Shown here one piece after another: positions 1 through 4,274 of a stretch of 40,274 bases of DNA (position 1 is the first letter of the stretch; the number at the start of each line of letters is the position of its first letter). A program made the translations under genes and the position numbers. A model generated the notes under the pieces. The model did no database searches and was not told where the DNA came from. It worked only from the letters and a program-made list of their open reading frames with translations. The stretch is from positions 1 to 40,274 of the forward strand of contig JASEGT010000014.1 of the NCBI GenBank assembly GCA_030018005.1. The letters are read 5' to 3'. This DNA is from Actinomycetota bacterium. GTDB lineage: Bacteria; Actinomycetota; Aquicultoria; Aquicultorales; Aquicultoraceae.

Positions 1-352
1 ATTCGAGACGACCGTTACCTAAATCGGCAATACGTCAAATCTAGACCTTAGGGAATGACCGTTTCCTTAACATAAATATTGTTTTGAATTTGACAGTTAC
101 AAATGGGGTAATTAATAAATATGGCGGGCTTGCTCAGGCATTCGATGTCAGCGTGTGATCTATTTTGTCCTCGGGCACCAAGCCGGTTCGGGTTTCAAAC
201 TAAGCGAACGGAGGTGGCAGGGTTTTCCGCGGAAAGAACCTTATTTGCCTGTGTTTATTAGACAAACCGTATAGTTCGGTCTTTTAAGGAGCGGTAGCGT
301 AATTGAGGCGCGGGCCTCATATGCCCTTTTATTAAGCAGAAGGAGATGTAAG
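1..352. other. Leader/intergenic region before the SQR-like gene
   Basis: No convincing coding region is seen. The stretch holds a possible promoter (about 90-118), a perfect 12-bp palindrome TTTCCGCGGAAA at 224-235, and a short hairpin with arms TGAGGC (304-309) and GCCTCA (314-319) followed by a pyrimidine-rich run. The ribosome binding site AGAAGGAG sits just before the ATG at 353. If transcription starts near 125, the untranslated leader is over 200 nt, long enough to hold a regulatory RNA. I do not recognise a known riboswitch. Confidence 0.4.
90..118 (+). promoter_or_regulatory. Possible sigma-70-type promoter for the SQR-like gene
   Basis: A perfect TTGACA (90-95) is followed after 17 bp by TAATAA (113-118), a poor -10. 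The -35 is good and the surroundings are AT-rich, but the -10 matches consensus at only three positions, so this is tentative. Confidence 0.3.
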
Positions 353-1588
353 ATGGCAAAAAACATTCTGATTCTTGGAGGCGGCAACGGCGGAACGATG
401 ATCGCCAACAAACTCAGACATGAGCTCTCGACAGAGAATTGGAACATCACCGTTATCGACAGAGATAACCGGCATATTTATCAGCCGAGTATGCTGTTGG
501 TACCATTCGGCCTCGATGACGCTAAGAAAATCGTCAAGCCGAGAAACAAGTACATCAAGCCCGGTATTAATTTCGTAATGGACGAGATTACTAATATTGA
601 TACCGAGAACAAGAAAGTCTCGACAAAGAGCGGCACGGTCTTCGAATATGATTTTATGGTTATCAGCACGGGCTGCCACCCGGACCCGACTGAGGACGAA
701 GGCCTTGCTGAAGCGATGGGCAACGACGTCTTCACCTTCTATGACCTGGATAGCTCGATACAGCTGGGCAAAGCGCTCAAGGAATTCCAGGGCGGCAAGC
801 TTGTTATCGATATCTCGTCGCTGCCCATCAAGTGCCCGGTGGCACCGCTTGAGTTCGCGTTCCTGGCCGACTGGTATTTCAAGACTAGAAAGATGCGCGA
901 CAAAGTCGACATCCATTTCGTAACGCCTGGTCCAGGTGCATTTACTAAGCCGAAAGCAACGAAGGTGCTGACGAAGATAGCCGAGGAAAAGAACATCAAC
1001 ATTACGGCGAACTTCGGCCTCGGCTTGGCAAACGGCGAGGAAAAATGGATTGAAAACTTGCAGGCGAGCGAGCGAATCAATTACGACCTGCTCGTCTCCA
1101 TACCGACCACCATCGGAGACAAAGCCATCAGCGACTCCGGTATCGACGACGGTATGGGTTATGTACCGACAGACCATCACACCCTGAAGGCCAAGAAGCA
1201 TGACAACGTCTATGTTCTCGGTGACGCGACAAACGTCCCGACTTCGAAAGCGGGCTCGGTCGTCCACTACGAGGTAGACGTGGTCCTTTACAACATCCTC
1301 AGCGAGATATGCGGGGGTGAGGCGATGCCGATGTTCGACGGCCATGCGACCTGATTTATAGTTACCGGGGCTGGAAGCTCCGTACTAATCGACTTCAACT
1401 ACAAAGTCGAGCCGCAACACGGCAAATTCCCATACGCATGGGGTCCGATGCAGCTACTCAAAGATACCAGGGCAAACTGGTACGGCAAGAAGGCGTTTAG
1501 CTATCTCTACTGGACCGCCCTGCTCCCGGGACGTCACCTCGGCGAGTCGTCGATGCCGTTCTGCGGCAAGGACGTCGACCACGAATAG
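353..1588 (+). CDS. Sulfide:quinone oxidoreductase-like flavoprotein, candidate selenoprotein (TGA at codon 334)
   Basis: An FAD-dependent oxidoreductase of the SQR family, which oxidises sulfide to sulfane sulfur at a cysteine pair and passes electrons to quinone. The N-terminus has the FAD-binding GGGNGG motif (residues 9-14); VYVLGDAT (287-294) is the second FAD motif. Cys161 in PIKCPVAPLEF matches the middle redox cysteine. After DGHAT (329-333) the reading frame meets TGA (1352-1354) exactly where relatives have the third redox Cys (GHA-x-C-F-I). The same frame then stays open for 77 codons of family-like sequence (FIVTG, LIDFNY, LLPGR) to TAG at 1586-1588, giving 411 residues, normal for the family. 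A hairpin suited to a bacterial SECIS follows the TGA. The start has a good Shine-Dalgarno, AGAAGGAG. Selenocysteine at 334 is inference; the alternative is a nonsense mutation that would remove the last 77 residues. Confidence 0.8.
1361..1385 (+). promoter_or_regulatory. Candidate bacterial SECIS hairpin
   Basis: Seven nucleotides after the TGA begins a hairpin: CGGGGCU (1366-1372) pairs with AGCUCCG (1376-1382) with one G-U pair, closing a GGA loop (1373-1375). The lower stem extends to G1361-C1385 if U1362 and C1365 bulge out. The loop starts with two G residues about 19 nt after the UGA. This agrees with the known bacterial pattern: a short apical loop with G at its start, some 16-37 nt downstream, and a bulged base below it. 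Assignment depends on selenocysteine insertion being real here. Confidence 0.6.
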
Positions 1589-1635: not shown

Positions 1636-1668
1636 GGATAAAGGTCGCGAGAGCGGCCTTTATCCTTT
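1636..1668 (+). terminator. Rho-independent terminator of the SQR-like gene
   Basis: A 13-bp stem (arms 1636-1648 and 1653-1665, one G-T pair) with a GAGA tetraloop is followed by TTT and a pyrimidine-rich tract. It lies about 50 bp after the TAG at 1586, not after the TGA at 1352. That fits the longer reading frame being the real gene. Confidence 0.85.
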
Positions 1669-3097: not shown

Positions 3098-3391
3098 CTA
3101 AGTCCAAGTCGTCGGCTTATGCTCTTCGATAAGCTCGACAAATCCCGTGTAATCTACCTCTTTGATACCGGCAATGACATTCGTCACACCCCGCGCCAAA
3201 AGGTCTTCCTTCAAAGCATAAACGGTGAAGTCCTTCATGATGGACTCCATCTTTTTCTCGAGTGCAGTCCCCGCCATTGCGCCGTAGACCGCGTCCTCTA
3301 TGAGCAGAATCGGCGAGCCTTTCTTGGCGAATTTCACGCAGCTGTCCAGGCTGGTTGAAACATATGGCGACCTATTTACTAAATGAAGCAT
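3098..3391 (-). CDS. tusB: Sulfurtransferase complex subunit TusB/DsrH family
   Basis: A 97-residue DsrH/TusB-like protein, third gene of a DsrEFH-type set that relays sulfane sulfur as a persulfide. It opens with MLHLVNRSP, typical of the family, and has SLDSC with Cys18, matching the conserved cysteine of DsrH. The ATG is preceded by GAGGAGG. It follows tusC with a 44-bp gap. No DsrC/TusE acceptor or DsrAB is visible in the window, so the acceptor protein must be elsewhere. The name follows fold and order; whether it works in tRNA thiolation or sulfur oxidation cannot be told here. Confidence 0.85.
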   Translation of the reverse strand: MLHLVNRSPYVSTSLDSCVKFAKKGSPILLIEDAVYGAMAGTALEKKMESIMKDFTVYALKEDLLARGVTNVIAGIKEVDYTGFVELIEEHKPTTWT

Positions 3392-3435: not shown

Positions 3436-3801
3436 CTAAAACGGTAATACCACGTCTTGCTCTTCCATAAGCTTGGTTATGGTCTCCGTGTCGACCACTT
3501 CGGCCCCGACAATCAAATCATCTGCGGTCAAGCCCCTGGCCTCCATTGATTCCTTGTCCACATACAGCTTCTCGATATCATACATTTCAAGCACTCTAAA
3601 TGTCGGCGAGAAGTCCTTGATGCCTGCCGCAGAGGTATCCATTCCCTTCTTTATCGAATATACGCCGTCGTCGACGAATATTATCGTGATATCCTGCTCG
3701 TACGCGCCCATAATCAATACCGACTCGAGGCCTTCAAATGAATATATCGTCCCGTATGGTGCTTTACGCATCATAATCATTATCTTACTAATATCGCTCA
3801 T
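3436..3801 (-). CDS. tusC: Sulfurtransferase complex subunit TusC/DsrF family
   Basis: A 121-residue DsrE-superfamily protein with the DsrF pattern: IMIMMRKAPYG near the N-terminus, then a middle segment ITIIFVDDGVY. I choose the ATG at 3801 because AAAGGTGG lies 8 nt upstream; a GTG at 3813 overlaps that site and is unlikely to be the start. It sits 20 bp after tusD and 44 bp before tusB, clearly one transcript. No cysteine is present, as in other DsrF/TusC subunits, which are thought to be structural. Confidence 0.85.
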   Translation of the reverse strand: MSDISKIMIMMRKAPYGTIYSFEGLESVLIMGAYEQDITIIFVDDGVYSIKKGMDTSAAGIKDFSPTFRVLEMYDIEKLYVDKESMEARGLTADDLIVGAEVVDTETITKLMEEQDVVLPF

Positions 3802-3821
3802 GAGGTTATCCACCTTTCTTT

Positions 3822-4181
3822 TTAAGATGCTCCGAACGTTACAAACCGGTCAGCATTAATAGCCATTTCGGTCAACTGACCGAGACCCGAGATTCTAAAC
3901 CCAGGCGCCAGCACATCGTCATTGATACCCCTGCGCTTCGCAGCGGCAATGCAGACTACCAGGTCGACGCCTTTTTCACCTATCTCAGACCATCTCTTAA
4001 CAATGTTACGGTCATCCTGCTGCGGGTCGGTCAATTTCGTGGAATTGATAACTCCGTCGTGATAAAAGAAGACGCCTACGATTTCGTGCCCTTTTTCCAT
4101 AGCGGCTTTCACGAACTGATAGGCGCTGTCGGAAGACTCGTGTTGATACGGACCCTCTTGAACCATAACGCCGAACTTCAT
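3822..4181 (-). CDS. tusD: Sulfurtransferase complex subunit TusD/DsrE family
   Basis: A 119-residue DsrE/TusD homologue and first gene of the operon. The catalytic cysteine is Cys77 in LVVCIAAAKRRG, matching the persulfide-carrying cysteine of DsrE. Start choice: GGAAGGAG lies 8 nt before the ATG at 4181 but only 2 nt before the ATG at 4187, so MKFGVMVQ is preferred over MSMKFG. The order D-C-B equals dsrE-dsrF-dsrH. A promoter with a CsoR/CstR-like operator lies about 95 bp upstream, suggesting induction by reactive sulfur species or metal. Confidence 0.88.
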   Translation of the reverse strand: MKFGVMVQEGPYQHESSDSAYQFVKAAMEKGHEIVGVFFYHDGVINSTKLTDPQQDDRNIVKRWSEIGEKGVDLVVCIAAAKRRGINDDVLAPGFRISGLGQLTEMAINADRFVTFGAS

Positions 4182-4274
4182 ACTCATCGCTCCTTCCAAA
4201 TGGTTAAATCTACGATGTTGCCAAGACAGGGCCGCCTGTTGGGCCGGTAATTCGATTATGCAAAAACTAAACTA

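Follow-up and report, generated by a model that had tools for sequence, protein, structure and literature searches.

Does an in-frame TGA codon end translation of a sulfide quinone reductase (SQR) gene, or is it read as selenocysteine (Sec)? The question is raised by a gene in a 40,274-nucleotide stretch of DNA, referred to here as the window, from the groundwater actinobacterium Candidatus Aquicultor (genome 2.19 Mb, 99.4% complete). Under translation table 11 the SQR open reading frame ends at 1354 and gives a protein of 333 amino acids. When TGA is translated as Sec, positions 353–1588 give 411 residues ending at a TAG codon, with Sec at position 334; this is the only TGA in the frame. The original prediction, made from the letters of the window, had placed the TGA at a redox cysteine of an SQR frame and had counted 77 family-like codons between the TGA and the TAG. 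The features of the gene and of its surroundings are collected in Table 1.

Table 1. Positions of features in the window, with the evidence for each
Feature	Position	Strand	Evidence
Shine-Dalgarno-like AGGAG, 7 nt 5′ of ATG	341..345	+	Direct sequence reading
Sec-SQR gene (proposed), 411 codons + TAG, one in-frame TGA	353..1588	+	Translation, NF049943 score, AlphaFold2 model
Cys108 codon	674..676	+	Alignment of Sec and Cys orthologues
Codon of Cys161, the invariant partner (Cys201 in human SQOR)	833..835	+	Alignments
TGA, probable selenocysteine codon 334 (human Cys379)	1352..1354	+	Translation, alignments
77 codons 3′ of TGA, purifying selection	1355..1585	+	dN/dS
SECIS-like hairpin CGGGGC-UGGAA-GCUCCG	1366..1382	+	Folding and covariation
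Terminator-like hairpin 3′ of TAG	1636..1665	+	Fold −23 kcal/mol, z −5.2
DsrH/TusB-like gene, sulfur-carrier trio	3098..3391	−	Pfam DsrH, 98 bits
DsrE/DsrF-family gene	3436..3813	−	Pfam DsrE, 89 bits
DsrE/DsrF-family gene	3822..4199	−	Pfam DsrE, 112 bits

The read-through protein contains a Pyr_redox_2 domain (PF07992) and a weak match to FCSD_central, and its best sequence match in the PDB was human SQOR (E 4e-47). An AlphaFold2 model, in which Cys stood in for Sec, had a pLDDT of 91.5 and a pTM of 0.90, and human SQOR was also its best structural match (PDB 6oi5 and 8dhk, TM 0.88–0.90). The domain match and the model together point to the FAD-binding fold with two dinucleotide-binding domains that characterises SQR. 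The modelled fold fits a functional read-through product, and does not in itself prove insertion of selenium. Alignment with human SQOR, whose residue numbers were derived by hand by shifting the chain index by a constant 40, paired Cys161 with Cys201 and position 334 with Cys379. Cys161 and the Cys or Sec at position 334 were the only invariant cysteine columns in the SQR alignment, and are therefore the probable redox residues flanking the flavin. The catalytic trisulfide of human SQOR is held by Cys201 and Cys379, the latter bearing the persulfide that goes on to an acceptor (PMC11039317). The original prediction had proposed Cys161 and Sec334 as a sulfur-handling pair, and had put the TGA at a redox cysteine; the alignments bear out both proposals.

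The SQRs of Acidithiobacillus ferrooxidans and Aquifex aeolicus have the same fold as the model (TM ~0.8) and use three cysteines. The window SQR differs from them in that none of its Cys residues has the spacing expected of the first cysteine in that set. Cys108 was considered for that role and rejected, as it lies 53 residues before Cys161, compared with 32 for the A. ferrooxidans pair, which we take to be Cys128 and Cys160; A. ferrooxidans variants of Cys128 and C160 are named in the titles of the structure matches. All seven full-length Sec orthologues of the window gene (clade A) have Cys108, which is absent from each of 17 Cys orthologues; it may be a resolving cysteine for Sec334.

Nine Aquicultor-family genomes have an orthologue of the gene (63–99% identity; seven genes full-length, two split over contigs), and all nine have TGA at codon 334. 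The nearest homologues beyond these orthologues (42–45% identity) have Cys at this position, as do all other homologues examined outside the second Sec clade described below. An in-frame UGA aligned with the Cys of homologues is the pattern by which bacterial selenoproteins are predicted. Among 396 Actinomycetota genomes searched, TGA at the Sec column was confined to the family to which the window belongs; the flags raised in other families of the phylum, where checked, fell elsewhere in the gene, with Cys at 334. A search of plasmids for the window SQR gave only distant homologues, with at most 37% identity among the matches listed. For the codons after the TGA, dN/dS was 0.067 against G009, 0.089 against G010 and 0.114 against G008, the three relatives for which the comparison is informative, synonymous change being high and not saturated. 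These values indicate that the codons 3′ of the TGA are evolving under purifying selection. Taken with the nine genomes and with a second SQR paralogue that has TGA in the matching column, they show that the codon is not accidental. The original prediction had held that the residue at position 334 in homologues, and the state of the sequence after the stop in relatives, would bear on its claim. The homologues divided into orthologues with TGA and more distant proteins with Cys, no decay was found after the stop, and both the count of 77 codons and their family-like character agree with our results.

Genes for Sec decoding were found in the same genome. The selB gene (380 bits, cut-off 242), selA and a tRNA-Sec gene with anticodon TCA adjoin one another on contig C48, which also carries selD, so that the whole set that the original prediction named for a search is present. 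The selD gene itself has an in-frame TGA, at ...ATKSGU, and so does the gene for FdhA, at CARLUHS. RF2 was detected over its cut-off, and TGA closes selA as well as other genes; UGA is therefore a stop codon in this organism unless recoded. In the genes of this genome (G000) that were sampled, comprising the window and the fetched loci, the stop codons were 35 TAG, 27 TAA and 12 TGA. TAG is thus the commonest stop in this sample, which is unusual for a bacterium of ~51% GC. In two related genomes, second, partial SelB-like matches (~206 bits) were present besides the full selB (G007, C5:69417-70289; G010, C42:73-945).

The UGA in the window is followed by a hairpin with a six-pair stem, the loop of which starts 17–18 nt 3′ of the UGA. 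Across the orthologues the loop is UGGAA or CGGG(A/C). In seven aligned orthologues 95% of the stem cells were paired, compared with 36–50% when the partner strand was slid by 1–3 columns; two stem pairs had changed on both sides, with pairing retained, and RNAalifold recovered the same stem. Hairpins with a GG-containing loop were also found 17–18 nt after the UGA in the SelD and FdhA genes of the same genome, and the second SQR paralogue has a GG-loop hairpin at the same distance. The energy of the hairpin was −7.4 to −10.3 kcal/mol in four of five clade A Sec sequences tested. The fifth, from G008, has an interrupted stem (−1.2 in a simple scan) and a good overall fold. None of the five Cys homologues tested gave a comparable hairpin with an energy below −2.2 kcal/mol. 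When sequences were taken singly, significance was modest: z ranged from −0.3 to −3.0 in clade A, and 3.5–9% of synonymous resamplings folded as well for four of the five sequences, with 57% for G008. It is therefore covariation and recurrence that carry the argument for the hairpin, and on structure prediction and covariation it is a candidate SECIS-like element with a G among the first two loop bases.

The reading that we favour, at a probability of roughly 0.93, is that the window gene encodes an SQR in which UGA 334 is translated as Sec by the organism's own SelA, SelB, tRNA-Sec and SelD, with the downstream stem-loop directing insertion. The modest single-sequence hairpin signals count against this, as does G009, which keeps the clade A TGA even though a search of its assembly (97% complete) turned up neither selB nor a strong tRNA-Sec. 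If instead the TGA were a real stop, as the table 11 gene call has it, the gene would be a pseudogene or would encode a truncated protein of 333 residues. Such a protein would lack both the residue needed for catalysis and the modelled C-terminal helix, the same TGA is present in nine genomes, and decay of the gene is ruled out by the dN/dS of the codons beyond it; termination at codon 334 is highly improbable. Reassignment of UGA to an ordinary amino acid throughout the lineage would fit the scarcity of TGA as a stop: of 74 genes sampled only 12 end in TGA, fewer than in either other stop codon, and two of these are selenoprotein genes. We rejected it because RF2 is present and TGA serves as the stop of selA and other genes; the genome also has a tRNA-Sec with anticodon TCA, and every in-frame TGA that was encountered lay at a known or plausible Sec site. 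Its probability is accordingly minute. The window comes from a fragmented assembly of 128 contigs, and a sequencing or assembly error could have turned TGC or TGT into TGA, but this is refuted by the relatives, in which separate assemblies with genes 63–99% identical all have TGA, and its probability is negligible.

The window gene belongs to a selenoprotein SQR family that is already catalogued. Its product matched NCBIfam model NF049943.1 (SQR_III_seleno, 'type III sulfide quinone reductase, selenoprotein subtype') over the full length, with 613.7 bits against a cut-off of 525. A 2026 review (PMC13188914) lists NF049943 with the motif HxxU and credits it to deep-Sep (PMC12013277). The deep-Sep work of 2025 predicted Sec in an NAD(P)/FAD-dependent oxidoreductase of Desulfosediminicola that has Cys homologues and a SECIS-like element (PMC12013277). 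That protein, compared here by its description only, is from a different phylum and is not called an SQR in the deep-Sep paper. The HxxU motif is present in the window protein as H331-A-T-U334 (GHATU), and nothing essential differs from the NF049943 family. The remark in the original prediction that it was aware of no described SQR selenoprotein has thus been overtaken by the model and by these two papers. Many Cys orthologues from Actinomycetota also score above the NF049943 cut-off, and therefore the case for Sec rests on the TGA, the hairpin and selection, and not on the score. The assignment to type III, as against types I, II and IV–VI, comes solely from the name of NF049943; among solved structures the best relative is that of human SQOR, which is mitochondrial, has ~26% identity to the window protein, and uses Cys rather than Sec.

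A second SQR paralogue was found on contig C101 of the same genome (L002, 347–1498, minus strand), adjoining a gene for an Rrf2-type regulator and a short repetitive ORF that is presumably DUF1641-like. It has a TGA in the same column as Sec334, within the motif YSGHIIU-P (GH-I/V-I-U-P in the clade as a whole), and scored 348 bits against NF049943, below the cut-off. This paralogue forms clade B together with genes of G001, G003, G007 and G010 that have TGA, and of G009 and G007 that have Cys. On the SQR tree the Sec label needs three changes, and the relevant branches are strongly supported; separate gains of Sec in clades A and B, with a later return to Cys in G009, would be consistent with this count. 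On the tree the Cys gene of G009 and the Sec gene of G010 are sisters, and between them the energy of the hairpin falls from −8.0 kcal/mol in G010 to −0.7 kcal/mol in G009. In G000 the clade B hairpin is weaker (−3.7 kcal/mol) and is not the minimum-energy fold. G009 has Cys in its clade B SQR and TGA in its clade A SQR; it may have lost Sec decoding recently, or a single assembly gap may account for the missing genes, because the sel genes are adjacent. What appears to be new is that the genome also holds a clade B Sec paralogue, which falls short of the NF049943 cut-off and has in G009 a Cys-reverted relative that has lost the hairpin. We lean slightly towards the view that the Aquicultor family has two Sec-SQRs of separate origin, with clade B representing an uncatalogued, independent gain of Sec followed by reversion to Cys and decay of the hairpin in G009.

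Beyond the Sec-SQR gene the window has a BPL_N-domain gene and then the DsrE/DsrE/DsrH trio. In the closest relative, G002 (L075, 6122–17962), a DsrEFH-like trio also lies near the orthologue, with TusA and AprB, identified by Pfam, on the other side; on that side there are also genes that we take to be AprA and two HdrA/Qmo-like genes. The neighbourhood of the G005 orthologue differs, and linkage to sulfur genes is therefore not fixed. Downstream of the TAG, the hairpin at 1636–1665 has 13 bp and a pyrimidine-rich tail after it. It was not among the predictions of a terminator scan of the window, and for this reason we grade it as terminator-like rather than proven. The original prediction had put the natural terminator after the TAG and not after the TGA; the hairpin and its z-score agree with that position.

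The sulfur genes also bear on what the enzyme does. Sec might be inserted into a protein that mainly catalyses something other than sulfide oxidation, such as the reduction of polysulfide or sulfur, or the handling of selenide, in a sulfate- or sulfite-reducing cell. The presence of DsrA in the window genome would suit such a role, and so would the neighbours of the gene in the closest relative, which include TusA, DsrEFH, AprAB and the Qmo-like genes. Against it, the protein agrees with SQR at each of the two catalytic Cys/Sec positions and in its fold as a whole, and the curated family bears the SQR name. We consider a reaction of this kind unlikely, while giving it some weight.

For the preferred reading, that of a Sec-containing SQR, this analysis establishes the frame, its conservation and the selection on it, the hairpin, the decoding machinery, the homology and the fold of the model; Sec insertion itself, enzyme activity and the sulfur acceptor are inferred. 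Cys161 and Sec334 would face the flavin, where human SQOR has Cys201 and Cys379. On the pattern of the human enzyme, HS− would attack a sulfur bridge between Cys161 and Sec334. The sulfane sulfur would stay on Sec334 and then be passed to an acceptor, which might be a thiol, sulfide or polysulfide, or a TusA/DsrE-type carrier encoded nearby. Cys161 would form the flavin adduct, and its persulfide would deliver electrons to FAD and from there to the quinone pool; the Sec334 selenolate would close the catalytic cycle.

Without UGA recoding, genes of this type are annotated as truncated proteins of 333 amino acids. With selenium in the residue on which the sulfane sulfur is carried, the enzyme would constitute a natural test of the advantage of Se over S in sulfide oxidation. 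The exchange of Sec and Cys at one residue in paralogues of one lineage provides matched pairs for such a comparison, for example the G010 Sec and G009 Cys proteins of clade B. If the two Sec-SQRs did arise separately, selenium would have been selected recurrently at the position that carries sulfane sulfur, tied to a sulfidic, sulfur-cycling life.
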